NCBI RefSeq assembly: GCF_000015045.1
Contig: NC_008609.1
Coordinates: forward strand, 3,399,501 to 3,463,500
Direction of reading: 5' to 3'
Length of the DNA: 64,000 nucleotides
Origin: Pelobacter propionicus DSM 2379
GTDB lineage: Bacteria > Desulfobacterota > Desulfuromonadia > Geobacterales > Pseudopelobacteraceae
Positions 23,152 to 45,840 of this stretch are shown here, piece after piece. Position numbers and translations under genes: made by a program. Numbering within the stretch: the stretch's first letter is position 1; each line of letters begins with the position of its first letter. Below the pieces are notes generated by a model. That model saw only the letters and a list, made by a program, of their open reading frames with translations. It was not told where the DNA came from and searched no databases.

Positions 23152-24121
23152 GTTGGCTGCAAATGCGAAGAGCGCTTGGCTCTGGACAAAGGTAAATTAC
23201 AGGCTCTTCGCTGTTTCAAGTGGGTTGAGGGTATAGTCTTCAACAGGAAGGAGTACAAGACCGGACGCATCAAACCGGAATCGGAATGGATCACCGTCAG
23301 CGTTGAGCCGATCATCGATCCCGAACTGTTCGAACAGGTCAGCCTGAAGCTTGAATCCCGTTCACCGGACAAAATTCCGCCCCGTGTCGTCAGTTCACCC
23401 ACGCTCCTGACTGGCATCGTCCGGTGCGGTTCCTGCGGTTCCGCCATGACCATTGCCACAGGTAAGGGTGGCCGGTACCGGTATTATAAATGCTCGCGCA
23501 AGATCAACGACCTTGCCAGGGGTGAGCGCTGTCAGAATACCAACGTCCCCATGGAAAAGCTGGACGGCCTCATCCTGCGGACCGTGGCCGAGCGGATATT
23601 CACTCCCGAACGGGTGGAGCTGATGCTAAAGGAATTGGAGATCAACCTGAAGTATGCCCGTTCCGACCAGCACGAACAGATCAGGCAACTGACCTGAGAG
23701 ATCGACGCAGATAGACAAGCTTTATGAGGCGGTGGAAAAGGGATTCCTCCCCTTGAACAGTTCCCTTCAGGAACGGGTTGAAAAACGCGAAACCCGCCGT
23801 CAGGAGATACTGGCGGAGCTGGCCAGCCTCAAACGGTAGAAGGAAATACCAGAGGAAAAGCTGGGCAAGAAGCACATTACGGCCTTCTGTTCAGCGCTCA
23901 AGGAAAAGCTGTGTGACAAGGCTTCAAATTTTGGGAAGGAATATCTGAAACTGTTGGTGAAGGAAATCAGAGTGAACAAAAAAGAAGTGCACCTGTCAGG
24001 GAGCTATTCAGCTTTGGCAAGTGCACTTTCTATTTCAACAAAACCGGCCCATGCAATGGTGCCCAGTTTTGTCCCTAATTGGCTCCCCAACCCGGACTCG
24101 AACCAGGGACAAGGTGGTTAA
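23152..24121 (+). pseudogene. decayed large serine recombinase (3' part)
   Basis: Residues readable from 23152 to 23696 give the recombinase and zinc-ribbon regions (GIVRCGSCGSAMTIAT, then YKCSR...ERCQN). The frame then breaks near 23696; a second frame continues (DKLYEAVEKGFLPLNSSLQE) with a TAG at 23837-23839 and then reads on to the coiled-coil end (GKEYLKLLVKEIRVNKKEVH). The catalytic N-terminal domain is absent. The last codons (NWLPNPDSNQGQGG) and the stop lie within the tRNA-Asn-derived repeat, so the recombinase once ended in an attachment site. GCGAAGAGC and GCTCTTCGC form an inverted repeat at its 5' end (23165-23211). Confidence 0.85.
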
Positions 24122-24124
24122 CAG
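24080..24124. repeat. left attachment site (45-bp copy of the tRNA-Asn 3' end)
   Basis: Begins TGGCTCCCCAACCC and ends GGTTAACAG, identical over 45 bases to 35922-35966. Immediately after it the two sites diverge (TAACCTTG here, CCACCTGC in the tRNA). Confidence 0.95.
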
Positions 24125-24262
24125 TAACCTTGTATATACGTTTCACCTCTTTTCAATTCCCTCCATGTAATCCCAACAACACCACTTAAAGCATTGACAT
24201 TGCCACATATTAAGCGTATTTCTCAATTCATAGTGTTTCAAACTATATCACCCTAACGCAGC

Positions 24263-24290
24263 AAACTATTACACCACTACTACACCACAG
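24263..24290. repeat. candidate integrase arm-type site, left
   Basis: AAACTATTACACCACT followed by ACTACACCACAG. Nearly the same 28-base sequence is at 35849-35876, next to the other end. Each contains two copies of a TACACCAC core. It lies just upstream of the integrase start. The rest of 24125-24326 shows no gene. Confidence 0.6.
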
Positions 24291-24326
24291 GCCAACAACA
24301 ATGTGTCTGACTACCTGGAGGACGCC

Positions 24327-25652
24327 ATGAAAAAAACGACCTTCACCGACACCATGATTCGGAAACTGAAACCAACGGAATCCGATTACACCCGGAGCGA
24401 GGGAAACGGCTTCACCATCCGCGTCATGCCCTCCGGTTCAAAAACATGGCTGTACCTCTATGCCTTCGACGGTAAGCGCCGGAAGATGAACCTGGGGAGT
24501 TATCCAGACGTAACCCTGGAAACAGCACGGGGGCGATTTGAGGACGCCAAACGGAAGGTGAAGAACAACATTGATCCCATGGCGGAAGCCGAAGAACAAG
24601 CGGAAGAGCGGCGAAAGGCCCCCACAGTTGCCGACCTTGTGCATGATTACATCGAGCGCCACGCCAAACGATTCAAGCGGTCATGGGCGAAGGATGAGCA
24701 GATCCTTAATCGGGAGGTTGTTCCAGCCTGGGGAAAGCGTAAAGCTGCCGATGTTACCAAACGGGACATACTCAGACTGCTTGAAGAGATCGTGAACCGC
24801 AACGCCCCCGCCATGGCGAACAACACCTTTCAGATCATCCGCAAGATGTTCAACTGGGCCGTTGAGCAGGACATTCTCCAGCACACCCCCTGCACCGGCG
24901 TCAAGCTCCCCTCCCCTAAGCTCTCCCGCGACCGTGTGCTTTCAGAGTCCGAAATCAAGACGCTATGGGAAAACCTTGGCCGTCCAGACGCGGGTATGTC
25001 GGACGGAGTACGCCGAGCGCTGCGCCTGATCCTGACAACAGCACAACGCCCCGGTGAAGTGACCGGACTGCATACCAGCGAACTTGACGGCTGCTGGTGG
25101 ACCATTCCGGCAGAACGCGCAAAGAACGGCAAGACTCACCGAGTCTACCTGTCTGGCCTTGCTCTGGAGATCATCAACCAAGCCATAGCTCAAGCCAAGA
25201 AATCAAGAGAAACACCATATGACCAGGAATACAACGGTTACGTCTTTCCATGCCACCACAAGAGCAAGGAGAAGCCCATGGGTGACACTGCCCTTGCCGT
25301 TGCCGTAGGCCGCGCCCTCGCATCTCCACTAACAGACGATAAAGGCAACCCCCTCTTTACAGCAGCCGGCAAACCAGCCACCGAGAACCGACTTGGAATA
25401 GATCACTTCACCCCGCACGATCTGAGACGCACAACAGCCACCTTCATGGCGAGCATGGGCTTTATGGATGAAGTGATCGATGCAGTCCTGAACCACGCAA
25501 AGCAAGGCGTCATAAAGGTCTATAATCAGTATCGCTATGACGTGGAAAAACAGCAGGCTCTTGAAACTTGGGAGAACAAGCTGAAAACCATCCTGGCCGG
25601 TGACAAGGTCGTCGACCTGGACCAGAAACGCAAGGAACGGAACGTCGCTTGA
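24327..25652 (+). CDS. tyrosine integrase of the island (P4-type)
   Basis: A 441-residue integrase. The N-terminal DUF4102-like arm-binding domain starts KTTFTDTMIRKLKP and includes LYLYAFDGKRRKMNLGSYP. The catalytic domain has Arg in TTAQRPGEVTGL, the HDLRRT box and the C-terminal Tyr in IKVYNQYRY, with His in LNHAKQG. It would recombine the tRNA-Asn site. ATG at 24327 with GGAGG at 5 bases is preferred over the GTG at 24303. Confidence 0.92.
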   Translation: MKKTTFTDTMIRKLKPTESDYTRSEGNGFTIRVMPSGSKTWLYLYAFDGKRRKMNLGSYPDVTLETARGRFEDAKRKVKNNIDPMAEAEEQAEERRKAPTVADLVHDYIERHAKRFKRSWAKDEQILNREVVPAWGKRKAADVTKRDILRLLEEIVNRNAPAMANNTFQIIRKMFNWAVEQDILQHTPCTGVKLPSPKLSRDRVLSESEIKTLWENLGRPDAGMSDGVRRALRLILTTAQRPGEVTGLHTSELDGCWWTIPAERAKNGKTHRVYLSGLALEIINQAIAQAKKSRETPYDQEYNGYVFPCHHKSKEKPMGDTALAVAVGRALASPLTDDKGNPLFTAAGKPATENRLGIDHFTPHDLRRTTATFMASMGFMDEVIDAVLNHAKQGVIKVYNQYRYDVEKQQALETWENKLKTILAGDKVVDLDQKRKERNVA

Positions 25653-25677
25653 CGCTCTGTAGCTTATAGGCTAACAT

Positions 25678-26022
25678 ATGACCATCCAGACATATCCGCA
25701 TGAAATCGAATACTATGTCACCGAGACAGGAAGTAAGCCGTTCAAGGTGTGGTTGGAAACCTTGCGAGACGTGAGCGGCCGGGCAAAGATTCGTGTCCGA
25801 CTGGACCGCGCCCGGCTGGGCAACCTGGGAGACCACAAGGCCGTTGGTGGCGGAGTTCTGGAAATGCGCATCGACTACGGGCCGGGATACCGGGTTTATT
25901 TCGGCAAAGACGGCAACCGGTTGCTGCTGCTTCTGATCGGTGGCGACAAGTCCACCCAGAGCCGAGACATACAGACCGCCATGGAATACTGGCAGGAGCA
26001 CCAGAAGAGGAACGCACGATGA
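25678..26022 (+). CDS. RelE/HigB-like toxin (addiction module killer family)
   Basis: A 114-residue protein of the Gp49/killer family (TIGR02683-like): KPFKVWLETLRDVSGRAKI, LGDHKAVGGGVLEMRIDYG, YRVYFGKDGNRLLLLLIGGDKSTQ. Family members are ribosome-dependent or free mRNA endonucleases. It overlaps the antitoxin start by 4 bases. Confidence 0.88.
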   Translation: MTIQTYPHEIEYYVTETGSKPFKVWLETLRDVSGRAKIRVRLDRARLGNLGDHKAVGGGVLEMRIDYGPGYRVYFGKDGNRLLLLLIGGDKSTQSRDIQTAMEYWQEHQKRNAR

Positions 26023-26330
26023 GACAGACCGAATACCAGAAAGACCTGATCGAGGCGTTGAAAGCCCCGGAGGAAGCAGCGGCATATCTGAACGCGGCAC
26101 TGGAAGAAGGAGATAAGGATGCCTTTCTCCTGGCGCTCCGGAATATCGCAGAGGCCAACGGCGGCATGAAGGTGGTGGCGGAACGGGCGCACCTAAACCG
26201 AGAAAGCCTGTATCGCACCCTCTCCCGTCGTGGCAATCCGGAGATACGGACGCTGTTCAACCTGTTGCATGGCATGGGGTTGAGACTAAGCGTCGAACCG
26301 TCTCCATTAGGCAAGCAGGCTGCAGCATGA
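26019..26330 (+). CDS. HTH antitoxin of the killer module
   Basis: A 103-residue DNA-binding protein (TIGR02684-like): residues 30-80 contain DAFLLALRNIAEANGGMKVV and the HTH ERAHLNRESLYRTLSRRGNP. It would neutralise the adjacent toxin and repress the operon. Start ATGA overlaps the toxin stop. Confidence 0.87.
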   Translation: MRQTEYQKDLIEALKAPEEAAAYLNAALEEGDKDAFLLALRNIAEANGGMKVVAERAHLNRESLYRTLSRRGNPEIRTLFNLLHGMGLRLSVEPSPLGKQAAA

Positions 26331-26557
26331 CGACGAACTGGCGTGAGGCCTTCCCCGAGTTCCAGGGTAACGAAGCCGGGACGATCCTTGCCGGATACCG
26401 CCACCGGGAGGGATTGACTCAGGTGCAGCTTGCAGAAGCGACCGGCATCCCCCAGCGGCACATCAGCGAGATGGAGAACGGCAAGAGGGTTATAGGAGTC
26501 ACCAGCGCAAAGAAACTGGCCGAGGCCCTCCACTCCGACCACAGGGGCCTGTTGTAA
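26327..26557 (+). CDS. Xre-type HTH protein, third gene of the toxin-antitoxin operon
   Basis: A 76-residue Cro/C1-type repressor: GYRHREGLTQVQLAEATGIP then QRHISEMENGKRVIG. ATGA overlap with the antitoxin gene indicates coupling. It probably regulates the operon or the island; a second antitoxin role is possible. Confidence 0.85.
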   Translation: MTTNWREAFPEFQGNEAGTILAGYRHREGLTQVQLAEATGIPQRHISEMENGKRVIGVTSAKKLAEALHSDHRGLL

Positions 26558-26623
26558 TCCGTTCGCCGGTGATAGTCCGCACAAATCAAGAAAGGCTCCC
26601 GAAACGGAATGCATTTTTTTGAA

Positions 26624-26652
26624 TTGACACGAAAAACCATTTGAGTTAGTTT
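26624..26652 (+). promoter_or_regulatory. sigma-70 promoter of the small RNA element
   Basis: TTGACA, 17-base spacer, TAGTTT. Predicted transcription start near 26659, directly at the beginning of the structured element. Confidence 0.7.
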
Positions 26653-26659
26653 TCTCAAA

Positions 26660-26756
26660 AATCAAACAAAGCGGTTCCGTGCGGCCCCTTCGGGGTTCCC
26701 AATAGCGCCCGCGATTGTATCTGGTGTTTTGCCAGGTACGGTCGCGGGCTTTTTGC
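26660..26756 (+). ncRNA. structured noncoding RNA, copy A
   Basis: About 95 bases with own promoter and own terminator. Box AATCAAACAAAGCGGTTCC, a hairpin CCCC-TTC-GGGG leading into GGTTCC-type sequence, then a long terminator hairpin GCCCGCGA / TCGCGGGC with inner stem CTGG/CCAG and a T run. A diverged copy is at 26973-27077. In layout it recalls phage C4-type antisense RNAs, but I cannot confirm the family. Confidence 0.65.
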
Positions 26757-26781
26757 GTTTAGGGCAAAAAAAGGAGTTCAA

Positions 26782-26964
26782 ATGACTGAGGATCGGATCA
26801 TCAATAAGCGCGAACGTCGTGAACTGACCAATATTAGCGAGCCAACTTGGTGGCGCTATGAGAGGGCTGGTTTGGTTCCTCGCCGGGTCCAACTGACCCG
26901 AGGCAGAGTTGGGTATCGTTTAAGGGAAATCTTGGCCTGGCTCGAGAGCCGCCAACCCGCTTAG
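26782..26964 (+). CDS. AlpA/MerR-like small DNA-binding protein
   Basis: A 60-residue HTH_17-type protein: NKRERRELTNISEPTWWRYE, RVGYRLREILAWLESRQ. Such proteins control integrase or act as excisionase-like factors in islands. AAAGGAG precedes the ATG. It lies between the two noncoding RNA copies. Confidence 0.75.
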   Translation: MTEDRIINKRERRELTNISEPTWWRYERAGLVPRRVQLTRGRVGYRLREILAWLESRQPA

Positions 26965-26972
26965 GCCAAACC

Positions 26973-27077
26973 TAAAAAATCAATTCACGCGGTTCCTCTA
27001 AGCCCTGCCCCACATCGGCAGGTTCCTGCACAGCCCGCGATGCTTCCACCTGAAATGGTGAGTGTCGTGGGCTTTTT
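26973..27077 (+). ncRNA. structured noncoding RNA, copy B
   Basis: Shares AAATCAA, GCGGTTCC, GGTTCC and GCCCGCGA boxes in the same order with copy A. Hairpin 1 is CCTGCC/GGCAGG instead of CCCC/GGGG. The terminator hairpin is GCCCGCGA / TCGTGGGC with inner stem CACC/GGTG instead of CTGG/CCAG, then TTTTT. These are compensatory changes. No obvious own promoter, so it may be read from the upstream gene. Confidence 0.65.
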
Positions 27078-27118
27078 ACCAACTGAGCACATGACGACCA
27101 AAAACGGAGGTCACCATC

Positions 27119-27271
27119 ATGTGCCAAAAAATCATGCAGTTTCGAATCGACGAGGAAATCAGGCGGGCCGCGATCTTAAAACAGATGCCGCTTCCCGGGC
27201 AACTTTCGAAAGTCCACCGCGCCCTCGACCGCGCCATGCGGCTTGAGGCCTATGCGGCCGTAAACCGTTAA
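27119..27271 (+). CDS. small hypothetical protein, possible ribbon-helix-helix
   Basis: A 50-residue frame, MCQKIMQFRIDEEIRRAAIL followed by a helical Arg/Ala-rich half ending AYAAVNR. The ATG has GGAGG at 9 bases. The FRID-EEIRRA start recalls small RHH DNA-binding proteins. It sits between RNA copy B and a three-way-junction-like element. Confidence 0.55.
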   Translation: MCQKIMQFRIDEEIRRAAILKQMPLPGQLSKVHRALDRAMRLEAYAAVNR

Positions 27272-27278
27272 CCAGCTT

Positions 27279-27343
27279 CCCGGGGTAGGCGCCGGCTTGC
27301 AATCGGCGCTGACAAGGCGGTGACCCTCCACCGCTTTCCCGGG
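27279..27343 (+). other. candidate three-way-junction RNA in the leader of the replication genes
   Basis: Outer stem CCCGGG (27279-27284) with CCCGGG (27338-27343), hairpin GCGCCG/CGGCGC (27289-27309) and hairpin GCGGTG/CACCGC (27317-27334), extendable to 9 bp. It lies 24 bases before the next start codon and could regulate its translation. Confidence 0.45.
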
Positions 27344-27366
27344 CATCATCGAAAGAGGGGCAGGCT

Positions 27367-28152
27367 ATGCAAGGGGTAGTCATGGAAGAGCAACACGACA
27401 GCCGGCCAACAACGTCGCAGCCGAAGATTCCTGGTGGATGCGTACTTCTTTCCAGAAAGACGCTTGATTCCGACTTGATGGATCAGTCACCCCTTGTCGT
27501 CAAGTTGTGGGTGTGGATCCTCCTCAAAGCGTTTTGGAAGGACGGTGACAAGCTGAAACGTGGTCAGCTCCTTACCACTATCGCCGAGATGCAGGAGGCC
27601 ATGAGCCACTATTCTGGATGGCGGAAGATAGTGCCCACAAAGGACGAACTGCGCTCCGCTTACGGAGCCCTCAGCAAGGCCACACGGATAACCACACGGA
27701 AGACCACACGCGGAATGATAATAACAGTAATAAATTACCACACTTATCAAGATATCTCCGCTTACGCTTCCCGCACGGAAAACCTCAAGGGAATCGCAAC
27801 GGAGCCCCCAGCAACCCCACACTATAGAGAAGAAAGAGAAGAAGTAAAAAATACTTCTTGTCCGGAACCGAGAAAAACGGCTCCGGACTGCATCATTTTC
27901 GACACGGAAAAGGACTCCTTCTTCAACACCGAATCCTACCTTCAGACATGGGAAGCGGCATACCCGGCTGTTGATATCCCCTTGGAACTTGCCAAGGCCG
28001 CCGCTTGGCTCAAAGCCAACCCGAAGAATCGGAAGAAAAACTATGCCCGCTTCCTGAACAACTGGCTGATGAAGGCCCAGGACAGGGCGCCACGAGTGAC
28101 GGGCGTGACCGATGACCGCAAAACCCGTGCTGAGATCGAGGAACTGCTATGA
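27367..28152 (+). CDS. phage replication initiator-like protein
   Basis: A 261-residue protein. Residues 20-125 look like a winged-helix replication protein N-terminus (GCVLLSRKTLDSDLMDQSPL, VKLWVWILLKAFWKDGDKL, RGQLLTTIAEM, then ITTRKTTRGMIITVINYHTY). The C-terminal part holds PKNRKKNYARFLNNWLMKAQ, typical of DnaD/O-type loader tails. It overlaps the helicase gene by 4 bases. It probably binds the island origin and loads the helicase; the origin itself was not identified. Start ATG at 27367, alternative at 27382. Confidence 0.7.
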   Translation: MQGVVMEEQHDSRPTTSQPKIPGGCVLLSRKTLDSDLMDQSPLVVKLWVWILLKAFWKDGDKLKRGQLLTTIAEMQEAMSHYSGWRKIVPTKDELRSAYGALSKATRITTRKTTRGMIITVINYHTYQDISAYASRTENLKGIATEPPATPHYREEREEVKNTSCPEPRKTAPDCIIFDTEKDSFFNTESYLQTWEAAYPAVDIPLELAKAAAWLKANPKNRKKNYARFLNNWLMKAQDRAPRVTGVTDDRKTRAEIEELL

Positions 28153-29408
28153 ACCAATTCACTGACCCTGTTGCCGAGCAAGAGATTGTCGGAGCCGTCC
28201 TGACGGACCCTGATTCCTTTACAAGCATCCGCCCCATTGTCACCCCGGAGATGTTCTCAAATCTGAAGCTGGAAACGGTCTACAGGACATTTTCTGAACA
28301 GTACGAGAAAAACGGACTCACTGACCTTGCAACCCTGGCGGAAATATCTGGAGTACCAGGACACGTCCTTGTTGGCTGTATGGCGGAAAGCGCTATTCCA
28401 TCGCTGGTACACATCAAGGCCCGCAAAATTGCCGACCAGTTCCACAAGCGCCATATTCAACGCCAGTTGGCGATTACCATCGCCCAGCTGGGAACCCTCA
28501 CCCCGGCAGAGATCGCAGCAGCACTCTCCAACTTGGCAGCAGACGTGACGATCAGGAACCATGAAAAATCCGTATTCTCTCCCGGCGAGTTGTGCAAACG
28601 AGTTTCCGCTCTCCAGAAGACAAGGGAGCAGGAACGAAAGGAAGGCAGGCACCAAGGGGCGGACACGGGCTATCCGGTTGTACAGCAGCTGCTCAAGGGG
28701 CTTGCGCCGAAACGAATGACGGTCATCGCCGCCGCTACCGGCTTCGGCAAGAGCACCCTGGCGCTCAATCTGCTTTACAACACGACCACAAGCGGACACC
28801 GGGCGCTGTTCATCACCAACGAAAACGACGTGGACACCAACCTTGACCGGCTCGCCGCGATTCACTCCGGCATCCGGTTGAAGGAGCTTGAGCAAGGAGG
28901 ACAACACCGGGCTGCCATCAGTTTTGGTGAGCAGTTCCACAACTCCGGCCTGTTTATGACCGACAATTCCCCCCGGACCGTTGAGGAGATCGTGGGGATC
29001 ATCACCCGACATGCGATTCAACACAAAATCAAAGTGGCCTTCGTTGATTACATCGGCGAGATCACCCCGAGCGGGGAGAGCTCCCGCGATACGGAAGAGG
29101 CAAGGCTTGCCCGTTATGCACAGCGGCTTGTTGATTGCGCGAAATCGCTAGAGCTCCATGTGGTCGTTATGGCGCAGTTAAACCGCCAAGGCAATACCAA
29201 GGGTAGGCCCACACGCGCCGAACTCGCTGGATGCTTCAAGATTGCCCAGAAAGCACACTCCTTACTGCTGTTTTGGCAGGACGAGAAGAAGCGCGACGTT
29301 TTGACCGTGGATAAGAATCGCCAGGGGCCAAGCGGGATCGACATCCACATGGACTTCGACCGGACAACGCAGCGCATCCGAGAGTTATGCGTTTTGACCG
29401 CTGACTAG
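28149..29408 (+). CDS. DnaB-type replicative helicase
   Basis: A 419-residue protein. The N-terminal domain begins AEQEIVGAVLTDPDSF, like DnaB. The RecA-like core has Walker A AAATGFGKSTLALN, Walker B-like KVAFVDYIGEI, and MAQLNRQ and KNRQGPSG near the end. It is shorter than chromosomal DnaB (about 460-470). It would unwind DNA for island replication. ATGA overlap with the preceding initiator gene supports one operon. Confidence 0.87.
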   Translation: MNQFTDPVAEQEIVGAVLTDPDSFTSIRPIVTPEMFSNLKLETVYRTFSEQYEKNGLTDLATLAEISGVPGHVLVGCMAESAIPSLVHIKARKIADQFHKRHIQRQLAITIAQLGTLTPAEIAAALSNLAADVTIRNHEKSVFSPGELCKRVSALQKTREQERKEGRHQGADTGYPVVQQLLKGLAPKRMTVIAAATGFGKSTLALNLLYNTTTSGHRALFITNENDVDTNLDRLAAIHSGIRLKELEQGGQHRAAISFGEQFHNSGLFMTDNSPRTVEEIVGIITRHAIQHKIKVAFVDYIGEITPSGESSRDTEEARLARYAQRLVDCAKSLELHVVVMAQLNRQGNTKGRPTRAELAGCFKIAQKAHSLLLFWQDEKKRDVLTVDKNRQGPSGIDIHMDFDRTTQRIRELCVLTAD

Positions 29409-29421
29409 GGGAGTGGGGCTT

Positions 29422-29535
29422 ATGAAACCGAGACCATCAAAAAAGCAAAGCCCCGGGTGCCCCTCCTGGATCTTGGCCGGCGTTCGGGAGAAGTACGAAG
29501 AGGCCACAGGTAAGCTTACAAGGGGCATACATTAG
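29422..29535 (+). CDS. very small hypothetical protein
   Basis: A 37-residue frame beginning MKPRPSKKQSPGCPSWILAG with a GGGGAG site, 13 bases after the helicase stop. Basic N-terminus; no family recognised. Could be spurious. Confidence 0.35.
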   Translation: MKPRPSKKQSPGCPSWILAGVREKYEEATGKLTRGIH

Positions 29536-29594
29536 TCATACAAATGGTTGTAGGCGGCTCGGCAAACGTCTGCTGTTGCTTTGTAAAGATGTTC

Positions 29595-29879
29595 CTATAA
29601 CTGGATGCCCATCACGAAATTGAAGAACAGCCAAACAGCGCCACCAACAACAGACACGAAGAATAGCCACGACATGATGACCTCTTCACCGATGAACATT
29701 AGCGCAAACGGCACCAGGGCAGCGAGTATCCACCATTTCATCGTCAGGGCGAACGACCCAATGAAGATTGCGGCCATGGCTACGGCAAGGGCTGTCACGG
29801 CCTTATCAATCCATCGCCGCCTTGGCCTGTCCCACAACGCCACGGGTGATGTCGTTTTTGATTCGCTGGAGTTCGACAA
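29595..29879 (-). CDS. small membrane protein
   Basis: Up to 94 residues with two or three hydrophobic segments (KAVTALAVAMAAIFIGSFAL, WWILAALVPFALMFIG, SWLFFVSVVGGAVWLFF). The start is uncertain because the first 25 codons overlap the preceding minus-strand gene; a later start is possible. Lies on the opposite strand to most island genes. Role unknown. Confidence 0.5.
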   Translation of the reverse strand: MSNSSESKTTSPVALWDRPRRRWIDKAVTALAVAMAAIFIGSFALTMKWWILAALVPFALMFIGEEVIMSWLFFVSVVGGAVWLFFNFVMGIQL

Positions 29880-30021
29880 GCTGCGCCCTCTTCTCGTCTG
29901 GAGATATTGTTCTGTCCAGATTAATTACTTTACTCTGTTTATTGGTTTTCTCAACTGCCCCTGCGCATTTTGCAGCAGGTGCTTTGACTGCAACTGAGGC
30001 ATGCTTTAGATGGGCGCACAT
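29806..30021 (-). CDS. small hypothetical protein
   Basis: A 71-residue soluble protein: Ala/Lys-rich start (HLKHASVAVKAPAAKCAGAV) and a helical C-terminal half (SPDEKRAQLVELQRIKND). No clear ribosome site. It overlaps the membrane-protein frame by 74 bases, so one of the two starts may be wrong. Confidence 0.4.
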   Translation of the reverse strand: MCAHLKHASVAVKAPAAKCAGAVEKTNKQSKVINLDRTISPDEKRAQLVELQRIKNDITRGVVGQAKAAMD

Positions 30022-30079
30022 GCAGGTATTCGCGGCCGGAAGACCCGGAAATAGAACAGCTTATACAGGAGGGGCGTAG

Positions 30080-30412
30080 ATGGAACAGATAGAGGAATTG
30101 AAGCAGGGGCGCGAGGTAATGCCTGAGTATGCAACCCTCTTGCAGGCGTATTTAGATCTCCTGCAAAAGCACACTGAGCTGCAAAAGTCCTACATAAACC
30201 TGCGGCTAAGTACCGCCTCATCAAATGATTGCCGACGTTATCAGGCTTTTGAAAACTGTAAACCGGTCATGGAGATCTATGCGCATCCGAACACCGGCAG
30301 CGAAGAACTGGTGAGCTTGCTACACGGCGCAATAGACGACATTTTGGAGTCAGCAGCCGGCGCAACCAGCGGCAAAGTAGTCAATCTTGATGCCTACCGT
30401 AACAGGAACTAG
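30080..30412 (+). CDS. hypothetical protein with N-terminal coiled coil
   Basis: A 110-residue soluble protein with GGAGGGG before the ATG. Residues 1-45 form a Leu/Gln helix (ATLLQAYLDLLQKHTELQKS). The end has ATSGKVVNLDAYRNRN, a short motif also seen in other small phage proteins. It is 15 bases upstream of the virion-like gene. Confidence 0.6.
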   Translation: MEQIEELKQGREVMPEYATLLQAYLDLLQKHTELQKSYINLRLSTASSNDCRRYQAFENCKPVMEIYAHPNTGSEELVSLLHGAIDDILESAAGATSGKVVNLDAYRNRN

Positions 30413-30427
30413 CGAAAGGGGAAAACC

Positions 30428-31951
30428 ATGGGAACTACAAACAATTGGATGGCGGATGGACTCAACGCTTACGTGTCTCTGGCTCGACAAGGCCTGGCTG
30501 AACGGAAACTTGAGGTCGACATGGAAACCAAGAATCAGCAGATGCAGTTAGCTACCAATCAGGATCAGCGTTCAGCTGCCTCTGCCGGGCTGTCAAACCA
30601 GGCCACACAACTTCAGATCGACGAGGCCAAGACCAAACAGTCGGAGCGAACCAACTTCCAAAGCCAACTGCGCGACTACATCACCATGAAAACGGCGGCG
30701 AACCCCTCTATCCCGAACACGCTTGACCCGGCAGAGATCGAGAGATCAACGCAGGAGGCCTACAACCTGGCGCATACCGCCAACATGCTGGGCCAGCTGC
30801 CCGACAACACGGCGCAGTCGTTCGGAGTTAAGGACTTGCCCCCCTATGCGCAACAGGTGTTGGTGGAGGGACCGGGCAAGGCGGCACGACTGCGAGCCGG
30901 AACGGTCCACAAAGACCCGAACACCGGCATGGAGTATTCCGTCACCGGCGATCTTGGCCCTGTCCATGTTGTGAAGAAGCCGGGGCAGCCGGCAGTCATC
31001 ATGCCAACCATGATGGTGGCCGGGAAGGATGCCAACGGCCAGGTGGTGTCGTGGGAAGTGCCGTTCACCGAAAATAAGTCCAACGACCCCAACGATCAGG
31101 TGCGGGCCATCACGCCTGACTTCCTGATGTACCGGGCGGGCAATCAGCTTGCAGCCTTGAAGAAGGCCCAGGAGAAAGGCATCTCCCCGGCGGTGGCGAG
31201 CGCGGAGGACAAATACAACATGATCCTCTCCATGCCGTATGAGAAGCAGCTTGAATGGTGGCAGGGAGTGATGAAAAACGAAACGGCCAAGAGGGAGAAG
31301 TACGTCACCGACGCAGCTGTCGCCCGGGCCGCGCAGCCCTACGCGGATCAGATCAAGAAGCTCAGTGGCACGCCGGAACAGAAGCGCACCTCCGCTACCG
31401 CCATCATGCTTGGCGCTCCCAGCGAAGTGGTAGATCACCTGTTGAAGTCATCCAAGGCTGTGAATGATATGTTCCCCGACAGCAAGCGCAACGTCGTGGT
31501 GGCTAACACCGGGGACGGCGTGTATGCGGTGGATGGCGTTACCGGGCAGAAGGTTTCAAAGATAGGCGGGCCGACCAAGGTACCGAACTACGGTGGAGGG
31601 AAAAGCAGTGGCGGCGGGAGGTCAAGAAGCGGCTCATCCTCAAGCGAGCTGAAACCACGCGAACGCCTTACTTCCATCGACAAGGACATCAAGGAACTGC
31701 ACACCGACAACCGGGCCTTGCAAAAAGAACTGCGCATCACCTACGACCGGGAGGGCAAGTCCGGGATCAATCAGGCCATTGCCGAAAACAACAGGCGGCT
31801 AAAAGAACTGTCTGGCGAGAAGTCCGCAATCATGGGCCGGGGCGGCGGACAAGCGCCACAGCAGCCCACCAAGCCCCCTCTGACATCGTTCATCAGCAAT
31901 TCCGGCAACAGCGTTACACCTCTCTCCCAGCGGTTCGGGCTGACCTTCTAA
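30428..31951 (+). CDS. large virion/ejection-like hypothetical protein
   Basis: A 507-residue protein without signal peptide. Residues 1-120 are Gln/Ala/Thr-rich helices (LEVDMETKNQQMQLATNQDQ). A Gly/Ser-rich stretch lies near 390-410 (GGGKSSGGGRSRSGSSSS), then a coiled coil (about 410-470) and a Pro-rich tail. This composition is like internal virion or DNA-ejection proteins of podoviruses, but I recognise no domain. It is the only island gene with virion-like character, apart from the terminase remnant. Confidence 0.5.
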   Translation: MGTTNNWMADGLNAYVSLARQGLAERKLEVDMETKNQQMQLATNQDQRSAASAGLSNQATQLQIDEAKTKQSERTNFQSQLRDYITMKTAANPSIPNTLDPAEIERSTQEAYNLAHTANMLGQLPDNTAQSFGVKDLPPYAQQVLVEGPGKAARLRAGTVHKDPNTGMEYSVTGDLGPVHVVKKPGQPAVIMPTMMVAGKDANGQVVSWEVPFTENKSNDPNDQVRAITPDFLMYRAGNQLAALKKAQEKGISPAVASAEDKYNMILSMPYEKQLEWWQGVMKNETAKREKYVTDAAVARAAQPYADQIKKLSGTPEQKRTSATAIMLGAPSEVVDHLLKSSKAVNDMFPDSKRNVVVANTGDGVYAVDGVTGQKVSKIGGPTKVPNYGGGKSSGGGRSRSGSSSSELKPRERLTSIDKDIKELHTDNRALQKELRITYDREGKSGINQAIAENNRRLKELSGEKSAIMGRGGGQAPQQPTKPPLTSFISNSGNSVTPLSQRFGLTF

Positions 31952-32004
31952 AAGGATAAACTAGACCGGCCACTCCCGGGTGATCTCGATAATGGGCGTG
32001 GCCG

Positions 32005-32230
32005 GTGACCATCTGAAACAGAGCAGGGAAAAGCCGCAAGTTTGTGGAGGAATACCTGATCGACCTGAACGCTACTCAGGCGGCGATACGGGCGGGATAT
32101 TCATCGAAAACGGCGCAAGAGTAGTCTTCCAGGTTGTTATCAAATGTTATGGTTCAGGCGGCGATTCAAGAGGCAATGAACAGCCCCACGCTTGTTAGTA
32201 AATGTTAGTATTGCAGCAGCTATTCAGGCG
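32005..32230 (+). pseudogene. decayed terminase small subunit
   Basis: After GTG-ACC-ATC and an in-frame TGA, the frame gives KSRKFVEEYLIDLNATQAAI then RAGYSSKTAQE and a TAG at 32122-32124. This is the conserved N-terminal part of Terminase_2 small subunits. In the next frame RLLSNVMVQAAIQEAMN continues the family pattern, followed by a diverged second copy (LLVNVSIAAAIQAG). Two stops and a frameshift make it non-functional. Confidence 0.75.
32135..32161. repeat. 27-bp direct repeat, copy 1
   Basis: Starts TGTTATCAAATG and ends GGTTCAGGCGG; identical to 33382-33408. It encodes part of the decayed terminase (LSNVMVQA). Confidence 0.85.
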
Positions 32231-32313
32231 GGTTGTTCCAAGAAAGCAACGGAGTGAAGCGGTCCTCAACTACTCCAGAAAACTCCAGTTGGTGATGCAA
32301 TCAGGAAAGCGAC

Positions 32314-32369
32314 CGAAAGGGGACTGGCCACATGAGGACAGAAAGCCATGGAGGCCCTTTCGCTTTTTT
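32314..32369 (+). terminator. possible terminator after the terminase remnant
   Basis: CGAAAGGG (32314-32321) pairs with CCCTTTCG (32355-32362), followed by six T. The loop is long (about 33 bases) with further weak pairing. Confidence 0.5.
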
Positions 32370-32383
32370 AGCGATTAATAGCA

Positions 32384-32539
32384 ATGGCAGGTAAGGGATC
32401 GCCAAAAGGAGTGAAGCAGGGGGTGGCAAAACACCACCACCTCAACAAGAGCACGGCAGGGATCAAGGCTCTGGCGCAGGGCGACAGCGTTGAGCGCACC
32501 ATCGTAGAACCGAAACATGACACCACTCAGGCGGACTGA
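32384..32539 (+). CDS. small hypothetical protein
   Basis: A 51-residue basic, low-complexity protein starting MAGKGSPKGVKQGVAKHHHL and ending in HDTTQAD. It ends 3 bases before the next start, so it is probably co-translated with the HGGxSTGP gene. Family not recognised. Confidence 0.5.
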   Translation: MAGKGSPKGVKQGVAKHHHLNKSTAGIKALAQGDSVERTIVEPKHDTTQAD

Positions 32540-32542
32540 ATA

Positions 32543-32860
32543 ATGGACAAGACCACACACAAAGAACTGGTACGGAAACTCCGAGCCTACAACGCAGAAA
32601 GAGATCTACGTTTCGCTGCCTGGGAAGAGTCCGGGTATGATCACCTCATGACACCTCAGTATCATCCCATGCCTCCGGAACTGGCCGAATTGGCTTGTGG
32701 CGCCAAGACCAGAACCGGAACCCCCTGCAAGCGCAAGGACATCTATTCGAATGGACGCTGTAAGTTCCATGGTGGATTGAGTACTGGACCAACTACAGAG
32801 GAAGGCAAAAGGAAAGCTGCAATGAATGGGGTGAGGCCCAAAAAGAAGCGAAGCCTATGA
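32543..32860 (+). CDS. HGGxSTGP-motif phage protein
   Basis: A 105-residue protein with the motif CGAKTRTGTPCKRKDIYSNG then CKFHGGLSTGPTTEEGK. The paired Cys and the His suggest a small zinc-binding fold. Such proteins are frequent near terminase genes in phages and islands; their role is unknown. The N-terminal 45 residues are helical. Confidence 0.75.
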   Translation: MDKTTHKELVRKLRAYNAERDLRFAAWEESGYDHLMTPQYHPMPPELAELACGAKTRTGTPCKRKDIYSNGRCKFHGGLSTGPTTEEGKRKAAMNGVRPKKKRSL

Positions 32861-32944
32861 ACGGTGGCGAAAAATCACGTTGCTCGCATGAGTGAGCATA
32901 AGAAGGAACAAGGGGGTCGTATCCGTGCCGCCCCCCGGTGGAAG

Positions 32945-33220
32945 TCAGTGGATGACCATCATAAAATGAATCTGACCTTTATCCCCCCCCCGCCTCTCAC
33001 TATTCGCAAGAACTCCGGTGAACCCCATCGCCAGCAAAGTAAAGCCGTCACGGCTCATCTGGTACATCGGCAGTGTCCTGCCGGTTGGGTCCACATATTC
33101 ACTAAGCCCAAAAATGGGCTGAGCATCATCAGGCAAATCGTGCTTTATTTTTTCGATGTCCCTCAAAATGTGGTTGTGCCGCTTCCCAAACACCTCTACC
33201 ACCTTCAGACTCGTGGTCAC
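32945..33220 (-). pseudogene. remnant of a Rha-family phage regulator
   Basis: TTSLKVVEVFGKRHNHILRD, then PMYQMSRDGFTLLAMGFTG match the N-terminal half of Rha proteins (phage regulators/antirepressors). It has an in-frame TGA just upstream of the GTG and the family C-terminal half is missing; sequence after GFTG does not match. Opposite strand to the neighbours. 32861-33469 otherwise holds no convincing gene. Confidence 0.7.
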
Positions 33221-33381
33221 TCAGCAGACAACGTCAAGAAGTGGTTACGAAAAGCGAAGCCCATGAATGGCAGAGAAAACTTGAGGTTGCAAAGGGTTTC
33301 ACAACAGGCAGGTGTCCGGCCACTCCTTGCAAATCCAACATCATGGCCTGCGTGGCCGGCACCCGCGTACATGGGCTCACC

Positions 33382-33408
33382 TGTTATCAAATGTTATGGT
33401 TCAGGCGG
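33382..33408. repeat. 27-bp direct repeat, copy 2
   Basis: Identical to 32135-32161. The two copies flank a 1.2-kb segment with the two small genes and the Rha remnant. Confidence 0.85.
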
Positions 33409-33469
33409 GCGAAAGATCACGGAAAGGTGAGCAGTGGTATACTCATCGAAACAGAGAAAGGTGAGCTCA

Positions 33470-33811
33470 ATGACACTGGCAGAGATGGCACAGCAGAAGC
33501 GACAGAGCGACACGAAGTTCAAGGCGTGGGTGCTGAAGGAGTCCCGGAGACTGGCGGAAACGGTGGACCCGATGGGCAGCCCGACGCAAAGGCAGATGCT
33601 GGAGTCGTGGAAACTGCACCGACCCAAGATGTGGGCGCAGCTGAACAGACTGGGGATAGCCAAGGAACTGGCGCACGTCCTGGACGAGAAGTGCCAGGAG
33701 TCGATCCGCAAGAACCTGGCGGCGGGGATGTACTCGACGGACGCCAGGGAGGAAGCGGAGAAGGACTGGCTACTTCTGGAACCGGAGGAGAGCGAGCTTC
33801 AGGAGGAGTAA
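33470..33811 (+). CDS. hypothetical phage/plasmid protein
   Basis: A 113-residue acidic helical protein: MTLAEMAQQKRQSDTKFKAW, LESWKLHRPKMWAQLNRLGI, TDAREEAEKDWLLLEPEE. The ATG at 33470 has AAAGGTGAG before it. I know similar proteins only as hypotheticals in integrated elements. Confidence 0.65.
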   Translation: MTLAEMAQQKRQSDTKFKAWVLKESRRLAETVDPMGSPTQRQMLESWKLHRPKMWAQLNRLGIAKELAHVLDEKCQESIRKNLAAGMYSTDAREEAEKDWLLLEPEESELQEE

Positions 33812-33893
33812 GGCCTGGGGGGGCAAGCCAGGGCATCCTGCAATAAAACCTGAGCCTGCCAAACCAAGAACTCTTGGCAAAAGGGTCTAGACT

Positions 33894-34124
33894 ATGGAAA
33901 TAATCATTTACATTATCGCAGCGGTGTTAATTCTTCTGTCAATTGGTGGCTTGGCTACGTTTCATGCGTCAAAGCATCCCGGCCTGTTGGTGTCTTCAGC
34001 TGTCTCTATTATTTTTTCATGCCTAGCAATATACCAGGTGCATTGGTGGCCTCTGGTAGCCGGATTTGCTGTAAATTGGGGGCTTCGGCTGATGGGACTA
34101 GACCCGAGTTGGCAGAGACGATGA
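33894..34124 (+). CDS. small membrane protein
   Basis: A 76-residue protein with three hydrophobic segments (IIIYIIAAVLILLSIGGLAT, GLLVSSAVSIIFSCLAIY, PLVAGFAVNWGLRL). Role unknown; could be holin-like by size but no evidence beyond that. Confidence 0.55.
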   Translation: MEIIIYIIAAVLILLSIGGLATFHASKHPGLLVSSAVSIIFSCLAIYQVHWWPLVAGFAVNWGLRLMGLDPSWQRR

Positions 34125-34166
34125 ATAATATGGGTTGTGATATTTATGAATAGGGGGAATGGGTGA

Positions 34167-34490
34167 ATGAAAAGGTATTTGTCGCCTGCCGTGCTGCGTC
34201 GGGCATTGTTGTGTGTTGCATGTGTGGTTTTCGCTACATTGCTCCACATATTTTACCTACGCATAGACCAGGAATGGAATCCTGACAAAAGACTATTGAC
34301 GCTTTACCACCAAGGTGATGTGCCGGTTGGATTTGTGGAAACAGGGAATGATCTCTTTGCATGCGGGCTGTTTGCGATCAACCAGCCTTGGGTTTTTGGC
34401 TTGATAGTCCCAATAATGTTACTGTTTGCTGCTATTTACATTTTGATAGGAGTATTTGAAAAAGCCGGGGAAGCACCCGAGGGCAGATAG
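34167..34490 (+). CDS. membrane protein with two transmembrane segments
   Basis: A 107-residue protein. Hydrophobic segments at about 11-30 (ALLCVACVVFATLLHIFYL) and 78-98 (FGLIVPIMLLFAAIYILIGV), with a hydrophilic loop containing DQEWNPDKR. Follows another small membrane protein gene by 42 bases. Function unknown. Confidence 0.6.
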   Translation: MKRYLSPAVLRRALLCVACVVFATLLHIFYLRIDQEWNPDKRLLTLYHQGDVPVGFVETGNDLFACGLFAINQPWVFGLIVPIMLLFAAIYILIGVFEKAGEAPEGR

Positions 34491-34554
34491 AAGTGATCTC
34501 ACCCGTCACCATCGAGGCAGCAGGAACAACTACGCCCATCATTTAGGCAATCCG

Positions 34555-34785
34555 ATGAAACCTCCCATGTCACAAGGTGAAACCGACGCCATCCCCAGGA
34601 TGATACAGAGGTTGTCCACAGGCGGTGTGGAAATTGCGGAGGCACTAGATGGGCATCTCACTGTCTGGATCATGGGCAGCCTGGGGAGCGCTGGAACAGA
34701 GGGGTATGAGGCGCTTGCCGTCGTCATCGCGACGCTTGAGGAGAAGGGGCACGAAGTCCCGGAACCGGGTAGCTTCGGGATATAG
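34555..34785 (+). CDS. small hypothetical protein
   Basis: A 76-residue frame starting MKPPMSQGETDAIPRMIQRL; a later ATG at 34567 is equally possible. The middle has HLTVWIMGSLGSAGTEGYEA. No family recognised and no strong ribosome site. Confidence 0.4.
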   Translation: MKPPMSQGETDAIPRMIQRLSTGGVEIAEALDGHLTVWIMGSLGSAGTEGYEALAVVIATLEEKGHEVPEPGSFGI

Positions 34786-34869
34786 TTGTCTTACAGGCTT
34801 AGGACAGGACAATGAACAAGCTGTTTCCCGGGAAAGGAGGCGGCTTGTTTGAAAAGAACAAAGGTTTTC

Positions 34870-34915
34870 AAAATAGCCGGGCCTGTTGACACCAGGTAGC
34901 CGGCTATTTTGTTTC
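34870..34915 (+). terminator. Rho-independent terminator
   Basis: AAAATAGCCGG (34870-34880) pairs perfectly with CCGGCTATTTT (34900-34910), then GTTT. Ends the block of small genes. Confidence 0.8.
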
Positions 34916-34982
34916 CAATTTGGTGTGTTTCTTATTTCTGCTTTTGTGTATATAAGTTATTGATTTTATTAGATTAAAGCCA

Positions 34983-35011
34983 TTGACTTCTCTTTTTATG
35001 CGGCCTATCTT
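34983..35011 (+). promoter_or_regulatory. sigma-70 promoter
   Basis: TTGACT, 17-base spacer, TATCTT; start expected near 35018, about 37 bases before the next ATG. The region upstream is AT-rich. Confidence 0.65.
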
Positions 35012-35054
35012 GGTTTCACATTGTTTCAAAAAAAACAGATCGGAGGAGAAGCGT

Positions 35055-35453
35055 ATGCACTGTTGTGGACCGGAGAACATTGGGGGAAATTTGAATGTTG
35101 GCGCTGATGCGATCGGAATGATGGAATACCGCGCAGGACAGGCGATTGCAGGCATTCGTGACGCGCTTGATGTTTTGGACGAGTGCAACGGGGCAGTTAC
35201 GGCTAAATACTCGCCATCTGATAAGCTACTGGATCGTTGGCGCCAAAACCGTCAATGGTTAAAGGAAAACGAATTTACATCTAACCTGGAGGGAGCAGCA
35301 AATGAACTTTATGTTTTAAGGACGGTACTCGATGGTCTCGAGGTTGATGATGATTATGTGCGAGACGGGGTAGTTTCGATGATTGATACCGTTGCTCGCA
35401 AGTTGGAAGACCTCGCTCACGGCAGAGTTTCAGGAGATATGCTGCCAGATTAA
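35055..35453 (+). CDS. hypothetical protein
   Basis: A 132-residue acidic helical protein: MHCCGPENIGGNLNVGADAI, then repeated helices (AIAGIRDALDVLDECNGAVT, TVLDGLEVDDDYVRDGVVSM). The ATG at 35055 has GGAGGAG. First gene of a short unit with two HTH genes. Function unknown. Confidence 0.6.
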   Translation: MHCCGPENIGGNLNVGADAIGMMEYRAGQAIAGIRDALDVLDECNGAVTAKYSPSDKLLDRWRQNRQWLKENEFTSNLEGAANELYVLRTVLDGLEVDDDYVRDGVVSMIDTVARKLEDLAHGRVSGDMLPD

Positions 35454-35471
35454 TAAACTGGGGTACAGGCC

Positions 35472-35645
35472 ATGGACAGGCTTTTAACGCTTAAAGAGGT
35501 TTCTCAGATTACTGGGAAAGCAGTAAGGACGTTTTACAATGCAAAGTCAACAGGGAGATATCCGCTCAAGTTCATCAAACTGGGTAGATCGGTGCGAGTC
35601 AAGGAAAGTGATCTGATAGCCTGGATCGAGAGCGGAGAATCCTAA
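35472..35645 (+). CDS. small AlpA-like HTH protein
   Basis: A 57-residue MerR/AlpA-type protein: LLTLKEVSQITGKAVRTFYN, then LKFIKLGRSVRVKESDLIAW. AlpA-like proteins regulate excision. It is next to the right end of the island. ATG at 35472, 18 bases after the previous gene. Confidence 0.75.
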   Translation: MDRLLTLKEVSQITGKAVRTFYNAKSTGRYPLKFIKLGRSVRVKESDLIAWIESGES

Positions 35646-35660
35646 CAGATGGGGGGGCTT

Positions 35661-35843
35661 ATGGAAGAAAAGCTTCTGACCGTGGAAGATCTGGCAAGGC
35701 GGACAGGCTTCAAGAAGTCATACTTCTACAACCGCGATCGAACCAAGGCCAAGACCCTTAAATTTTGCTTCGAGCGCCCACTGATGACAACCGAGGAGAA
35801 TTTCCAGGATTGGCTCAAGAGTTTGGCCAAGAGCAAGGTGTAG
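35661..35843 (+). CDS. second small HTH protein (excisionase-like)
   Basis: A 60-residue protein: EEKLLTVEDLARRTGFKKSY, FYNRDRTKAKTL, ...ENFQDWLKSLAKSKV. Its layout matches the preceding AlpA-like protein and the two may act together. The ATG at 35661 follows GGGGGG; an ATG at 35649 is possible. It ends 5 bases before the arm-like site. Confidence 0.7.
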   Translation: MEEKLLTVEDLARRTGFKKSYFYNRDRTKAKTLKFCFERPLMTTEENFQDWLKSLAKSKV

Positions 35844-35848
35844 TCTAG

Positions 35849-35876
35849 AAACTATTACACCACTGACTACACCACA
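35849..35876. repeat. candidate integrase arm-type site, right
   Basis: AAACTATTACACCACTGACT then ACACCACA; differs from 24263-24290 by one inserted base. Same orientation at both ends. Confidence 0.6.
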
Positions 35877-35877
35877 A

Positions 35878-35920
35878 AGAAAAAGGGCTTACACCGTCAT
35901 GATGTAAGCCCTTGTTTTTT
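35878..35920 (-). terminator. terminator downstream of tRNA-Asn / end of the island
   Basis: On the minus strand GGGCTTACA and TGTAAGCCC form a perfect 9-bp stem followed by TTTTT. It lies just after the tRNA 3' end; an A/T run on the other side could also serve the rightward genes. Confidence 0.8.
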
Positions 35921-35921
35921 C

Positions 35922-35997
<76 letters not shown>

Positions 35998-45744: not shown

Positions 45745-45840
45745 CATAACACCTCTATGAAAAGGCAAACTCAGGGCAACCTGGGGACGCAAAGCCACGG
45801 GTCCGCAGCAGCGGACAGCCGGGACATCAAGAGAGGGCAA
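45745..45840 (+). promoter_or_regulatory. GEMM-I (c-di-GMP-I type) riboswitch aptamer
   Basis: P1 CCTCT (45752-45756) / AGAGG (45832-45836). The core has AAAAGGCAAAC, the GNRA-type hairpin CTCAGG-GCAA-CCTGGG, GGGACGCAAAGCCACGGG and the second arm GTCCGC-AGCA-GCGGAC-AGCCGGG. The residue aligned to ligand-contacting G20 appears to be G, favouring c-di-GMP; however, relatives in this order also include cyclic AMP-GMP-binding variants, so the ligand should be considered open. Confidence 0.9.

Follow-up and report, generated by a model that had tools for sequence, protein, structure and literature searches.

Paralogous terminator-linked RNA elements in a mobile island of Pelobacter propionicus as candidate attenuators of read-through

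Analysis of a 64,000-nucleotide stretch of the Pelobacter propionicus DSM 2379 genome (the window) supports the conclusion that two elements flanking an AlpA-like gene, A (26671–26754) and B (26989–27077), both on the plus strand, are real, structured, and paralogous RNA elements of a mobile island. In our best reading, the pair acts as two attenuators within a small mobile element and probably belongs to a wider phage kind that is not yet registered.

The two elements share a common plan. The box GCGGTTCC is followed by a small hairpin with GG at the end of its 3' arm, the motif TTCC, and, 6 to 7 nt further on, a long intrinsic terminator that carries GCCCGCG in its 5' half-stem. Behind the terminator come TTTTT and then a Shine–Dalgarno (SD) sequence and start codon. 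The preliminary description had reported a set of ordered boxes, and we found every one of them in place: AATCAA (at 26660 in A and 26978 in B), GCGGTTCC (26671–26678 and 26989–26996, identical at 8 of 8 positions), GGTTCC (26694–26699 and 27021–27026), GCCCGCGA (at 26707 and 27033), and the T run (26750–26754 and 27073–27077). The small hairpin is GGCCCC-TTC-GGGGTT in A and CCTGCC/GGCAGG in B. These hairpins had also been described as compensating; the contrast of CCCC/GGGG with CCTGCC/GGCAGG and the upper parts of the terminators read as claimed, but two copies whose stems differ in length do not constitute phylogenetic covariation. Local alignment of A with B gave a score of 55, which was reached by none of 2000 dinucleotide shuffles of B, and alignment without the terminators gave a score of 38, again reached by 0 of 2000; the likeness reaches into the A-rich stretch ahead of the box. 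On the plus strand, both elements folded more stably than all 200 shuffles (z –4.8 for A and –4.4 for B), while folds of the minus strand were weaker (z –2.4 for A, equaled by 3 of 200 shuffles, and –1.6 for B, equaled by 12 of 200).

Both elements lie within an integrated mobile island of about 11.9 kb (24080–35966), whose ends are marked by an exact 45-bp tRNA-Asn repeat. The left copy (24080–24124) matches the 3' part of the tRNA and forms a direct repeat with the right copy (35922–35966), which is within tRNA-Asn (35922–35997, minus strand). A tyrosine integrase gene occupies the island's left end (24303–25652, plus strand; Pfam Phage_integrase, E 4e-16, and Arm-DNA-bind_3, E 3e-22). Element A is upstream of alpA, an AlpA-like excisionase or regulator gene (26782–26964, plus strand; 60 aa; SD GGAG; Pfam Phage_AlpA, E 5e-6; PHROG 2790, E 5e-8), and B is between alpA and a 50-aa open reading frame (27119–27271, plus strand; SD GGAGG) that matched neither Pfam nor PHROG. 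Beyond these lie a DnaD-like helicase loader gene (27367–28152, plus strand; PHROG 2514, E 1e-13), whose start is probably 27382 rather than 27367 because the SD sequence AAGGGG falls between two ATG codons, and a DnaB-like replicative helicase gene (28149–29408, plus strand; Pfam DnaB_C, E 3e-29). Every assigned gene from the integrase to the DnaB-like helicase is on the plus strand. Pfam, PHROG, and ORF scans placed a toxin-like/antidote-like pair, a small XRE repressor, and a Rha-domain remnant (32945–33220, minus strand) elsewhere in the island. Portal, terminase, and capsid families had no Pfam match among the 18 window proteins scanned, a set that covers part of the island's proteins, and a satellite-like element is one possible reading of the island. 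Viral contigs searched with the DnaD-like protein contained no recognizable relative. Just left of the island, we observed a serine recombinase fragment with a zinc ribbon domain (23176–23697), probably the remnant of an older element.

The position of the terminators suggests how the pair might work. The terminator of A (26707–26754, plus strand; stem 26707–26749, then TTTTT) was listed by a terminator scan, while that of B was absent from the scan and falls outside its loop and stem limits; folding recovered both as GC-rich stems with a U run (–27 to –36 kcal/mol). They end only 27 nt (A) and 41 nt (B) ahead of the next start codon, a gap in which a new promoter would scarcely fit; because of this spacing and the single direction of the operon, the genes behind the terminators most likely need read-through. 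A promoter-like site read from the sequence precedes A (26624–26652, plus strand), with a perfect –35 hexamer (TTGACA, 26624–26629), a 17-nt spacer, and a poor –10 hexamer (TAGTTT). The earlier statement that copy A has its own promoter is therefore weak, since the –10 hexamer matches at only 3 of 6 positions and a promoter scan over 26300–27500 reported no site.

We tentatively favor, at somewhat short of even probability, a reading in which A and B are paralogous cis-acting attenuators that would govern read-through into alpA and the replication genes of an early operon. Polymerase would transcribe the box and small hairpin and then meet the strong intrinsic terminator, and alpA, the 50-aa reading frame, and the replication genes would most likely be reached by read-through from upstream. 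The CGG-NN-CC box, the hairpin, and TTCC would most likely form the site that sets this read-through, the agent being a protein, some partner RNA, or else polymerase, and RNAs of about 95 nt that end at the terminators may arise as by-products. Downstream of B, the transcript would meet a second brake, an int-alpA-type RNA with a loop complementary to SD-like sites before the helicase loader gene. The anatomy, paralogy, terminators, gene order, and likeness to phage elements are observations; that read-through is regulated, and regulated by the box, is what we infer from them.

We searched for relatives with a model of the front half shared by A and B (R1) in 277 genomes of the class. Matches at E 0.1 occurred in 31 of the 277, including the organism's own genome; no terminator of the A/B kind lay behind any of the five inspected places apart from the own copies (L089–L093), the rest being judged from the ten best alignments or the table. 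R1 returned no convincing homologue, and we recognized neither A nor B in other islands, whether in the 277 class genomes with R1 or among seven islands related to this one. Scans of viral contigs and genome contigs (54 stretches) with sequence patterns left, after filtering, a single look-alike among the matches listed (L157); the genome-contig pattern required exact AAAAATCAA-N5-GCGGTTCC, so relatives lacking it were missed. Among phage elements, L157 comes closest to A and B, having been picked by a pattern that contains the A/B boxes. Its box starts 15 to 16 nt past the stop codon of the upstream reading frame (B starts 24 nt past that of alpA), and it is upstream of a portal gene. Tracing this portal gene showed that related phages and prophages have an RNA family at that junction.

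Ten distinct elements passed a descriptor of this plan; they have a CGG-N(1–4)-CC box, 3 to 8 nt, a hairpin of 4 to 7 pairs, 7 to 10 nt, and a terminator of –23 to –39 kcal/mol. Eight of these stand before a portal gene (L157, L391, L393, L395, L396, L397, L383, and L385, with L392 and L394 as counterparts of L391 and L395), L383 coming from a genome (G034) of the same bacterial family as the window. The other two are L472, between two other phage genes of which the second is by eye a peptidase, and L477, behind a 95-aa reading frame and not directly before a start codon. We also observed by eye that a reading frame of about 50 aa and similar look precedes the element in L157, L358 (the same as L393), L383, and L359 (the same as L396). 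A covariance model built from four phage elements (R2) additionally found elements after the portal gene (L438, L453, and L414) that fail the descriptor, and phage contig G282 carries two junction copies that we judged real; a clear small hairpin is missing from the first.

Not every relative carries the element. Of 80 portal loci, 76 were examined, L412, L426, L429, and L457 starting too near a contig end, and L399 and L469 have almost no upstream sequence. A strong terminator preceded the portal gene in 8 of the 76 loci, one of which (L433) has no box, and none did so in 68; most portal relatives are without the element. R2, run on 73 portal loci, then found L397, which the terminator script had missed. 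In the 277 class genomes R2 returned seven places, of which L473–L476, apparently terminators and nothing more, were excluded from the family; an R2 match at position 32607 of G282 is inside a gene, and two further weak matches are in G217. In 8 inspected annotated relatives of the L157 phage, out of 33 matched records, no more than 23 nt precede the portal gene; the element is therefore not present throughout this group.

The stems of the phage family vary in a compensating way. In six sequences of its terminator, both partners changed at 5 of 19 pairs, a number that 63 of 500 shuffles reach; the covariation score was reached by 4 of 500 shuffles, and slid structures gave at most one such pair. 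The small hairpin, for which three sequences make only a weak test, changed at 2 of 5 pairs (50 of 500 shuffles; 0 in slid structures). Rfam models run on seven of the junction loci gave no match near a gathering score. In podovirus-like phages (L157, L383, L391, L393, L395, and L397), the portal gene is thus preceded by a conserved structured element that includes a strong terminator, is unregistered, and had no near-threshold Rfam match where checked.

Like A and B, the phage elements (L157, L391, L393, L395, L383, L397, L472, and others) combine a CGGNNCC-like box, 3 to 8 nt, a small hairpin, a linker of 7 to 10 nt, and a strong terminator, mostly followed by a start codon; A and B likewise stand between two genes, directly before an SD sequence and start codon. 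Unlike A and B, most of the phage elements adjoin a portal gene, and their covariance model does not score the pair: A and B were not among the R2 matches in the window at E 10, and the best match in the organism's own genome (14.5 bits) lies elsewhere. A and B do have their box, hairpin, linker, and terminator within the ranges of the descriptor, whose limits were fixed after A, B, and the phage elements had been seen. In its strict form, the descriptor matches the 64-kb window at A and B only, gave 0 matches in 584,522 bases of 92 other loci, and gave 15 matches in 400 Markov copies of the window, never two in one copy. Being of common ancestry, A and B do not count as two separate matches, and the chance of a match per window-sized copy is about 0.04. 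Within 3.66 Mb, a looser form recovers the ten elements as well as A and B, along with 19 further places, of which many lie in loci picked by similar-box patterns; it is not specific by itself, given 14 matches in 40 Markov copies. From these comparisons, membership of A and B in the wider phage junction kind, with its CGGNNCC box, hairpin, and terminator, appears probable, short of a demonstration.

A constitutive terminator would look the same as an attenuator, which counts against the attenuator reading. Accordingly, one must weigh the view that A and B are plain intrinsic terminators copied with about 25 nt of upstream sequence by partial duplication of the operon, the boxes and small hairpin having no function. 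The extension of the A/B likeness into the A-rich stretch before the box agrees with such a duplication, as do the lack of a recognized copy in other class genomes and the failure of R2 to recognize the pair; against it, the box (8 of 8) and TTCC were kept although the stems changed, and the same plan recurs in other phage operons. We regard this view as doubtful, though a possibility to be taken seriously. A trans-acting role appears unlikely: A, from its own promoter, and B would release RNAs of about 95 nt that use GCGGUUCC to pair with distant mRNAs or, as IsrK does, with their own read-through transcript. The A-rich 5' end, the exposed boxes, the U-tailed terminator, and the TTGACA before A would suit such RNAs, and IsrK of Gifsy-1, for which PMC4825925 describes a short terminated RNA and a long read-through mRNA, works in this way. 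Arguing against a trans-acting role are the weak –10 hexamer and the negative promoter scan, together with the duplex energies of four A/B box pieces against 13 island gene starts: none passed the 5% point of shuffled boxes, the lowest being –21.3 against a shuffled median of –17.7 and a 5% point of –22.4. IsrK and the P4 seqA/CI RNA do resemble A and B as short RNAs with a terminator and a read-through product carrying phage genes, IsrK also in having a small reading frame downstream; the same paper reports that the P4 CI RNA causes premature termination. Both systems have a complementary partner RNA that acts on termination or translation, and we liken them to A and B by plan.

The HK022 put RNAs offer a further parallel, as cis RNAs placed where they could govern read-through of phage terminators, and according to PMC9378689 a phage RNA of this kind can itself modify polymerase. 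By analogy, the folded box and hairpin would bind RNA polymerase, which would then pass the next terminator. The position of the elements before terminators at gene junctions of phages and of an island fits such intrinsic antitermination, but put RNAs, about 70 nt with two long stem-loops in that source, are marked by binding to the zinc domain of polymerase beta', whereas A and B have, comparing by description, one short hairpin (4 to 6 bp) and a second stem that is the terminator itself. We consider a put-type mechanism highly improbable. An antiterminator called AlpA in P. aeruginosa recognizes promoter DNA, according to PMC7969949; it has its name in common with the island's AlpA, and from the name we draw nothing. 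We also considered, and rejected, a solitary CRISPR-repeat mimic acting as an RNA anti-CRISPR against the host. The host array (about 1543–4194 of L374, in the organism's own genome near cas1) has 44 copies of a 20-nt repeat core, with the repeat CGGTTCATCCCCGCGCATGCGGGGAACAC, and is presumably type I-E by its form. Its repeat begins CGGTTC, but the alignments of A and B to it were equaled by 330 and 363 of 1000 shuffles, and the usual crRNA strand is opposite to the strand on which A and B have their promoter-like site and terminator. A mimic is of practically negligible probability. For L157, 5 of 1000 shuffles aligned to the host repeat as well, which we take as chance in a GC hairpin.

The preliminary description had seen in the pair a functional small RNA family with possibly C4-like antisense control of phage genes such as the Rha remnant. 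The first half holds in that A and B are real paralogous structured RNAs whose plan recurs with varying stems in phages; C4-like action by the pair is not supported. A and B do resemble C4 of P1 and P7 (RF01695), a phage regulatory RNA whose leader likewise precedes early genes, and the phage island, the structured RNA, and the immunity-like neighborhood speak for membership. However, RF01695 gave no match in 26300–27400 up to E 10, while C4 of phage P1, our yardstick, matched it at 68.8 bits and has an outer stem enclosing two hairpins. The folds of A and B have no such outer stem, they lack a significant antisense match to the 13 island gene starts, the box duplexes lying within the shuffles, and unlike C4 they end in a strong terminator. 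We therefore rejected C4 membership, to which we assign very little probability. No such element lies near the Rha remnant at 32945–33220, the strict descriptor matching only A and B. Across all Rfam models at E 10, the sole overlap with the pair was a chance-level OxyS match (26900–27009, E 8.3, 13 of 75 bits) that takes in the first 21 nt of B. Elsewhere in the window, a c-di-GMP-I riboswitch (45754–45831) scored 59.7 bits, above the gathering score.

The C4 idea fits instead the neighboring int-alpA-type RNA (RF02996; 27278–27359, plus strand), 200 nt downstream of B, which, like C4, has two hairpins within an outer stem and is complementary to a ribosome-binding site. This RNA is in the same operon as A and B, which are separate elements without a match to RF02996. 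It scored 23.6 bits against a gathering score of 35.8 and is thus sub-threshold (E 0.026 for 1101 bases), although the match is full length (model positions 1–71 of 71); its loop is ACCCTC, and its fold is unremarkable for a GC-rich sequence (z only –0.67). A small hairpin, GGCTA-TGCAAGGGG-TAGTC (27363–27381, plus strand), follows with an SD sequence in its loop and the likely ATG start at 27382. A related island (L378) has an above-threshold copy in the same place (3404–3473, minus strand; 42.2 bits), some 20 nt ahead of where its DnaD-like gene starts, and the other six of seven related islands have none at E 0.5. Among the 277 class genomes, 40 have int-alpA RNA above the cut-off, the organism's own genome being without a match in that search.

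We assembled 31 int-alpA loci with 27 distinct loops (30 retrieved, less L515, whose match touches a contig end, plus the window and L378). In permutations of these loci that ignore kinship, the loop of the second hairpin was complementary to the final 14 nt of the RF02996 match (longest run averaging 5.11 versus 3.74 permuted; 0 of 10,000 for both run and duplex energy) and to the next 34 nt, which include the next gene's SD sequence (5.04 versus 4.35; 1 of 10,000 for run and 4 of 10,000 for duplex energy). An SD-like motif in a small-hairpin loop with a start codon behind it was found in 24 of the 31 loci, compared to a mean of 2.7 in mononucleotide shuffles; L378 is among the 7 without such a hairpin by our script. 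The window fits the pattern, with the loop ACCCTC, the site GAGGG, the SD hairpin, and the start at 27382, although the run at the second site is only 4. The pairing suggests that the int-alpA loop exerts antisense control over translation of the next gene. Of note, the loop also gave –13.2 against the start of the 50-aa reading frame, the lowest value among 10 starts, but –12.1 was obtained for the one at 30080 and we make no claim for this pairing. In Rfam, C4 has a clan and int-alpA has none, and a literature search found no functional study of int-alpA RNA, which was only listed by name.

In a broader joint reading, which we hold to be speculative and unlikely as a whole, A, B, and the phage junction elements would be one unregistered class of cis RNA that makes operon terminators conditional. 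Two such gates and an int-alpA antisense brake would form, in the island, a three-RNA leader choosing between quiet integration and excision with replication, the same end as that of the P4 CI system reached with other parts; in the int-alpA family, the loop would act by pairing both with a site at the RNA's own 3' end and with the SD sequence that a hairpin loop of the next gene presents. For that Rfam family, the covariation of loop and sites offers a concrete, sequence-supported function, as antisense to an SD. Strong terminators inside phage operons raise the question of how polymerase passes them, and the conserved element directly ahead provides a testable handle on it.
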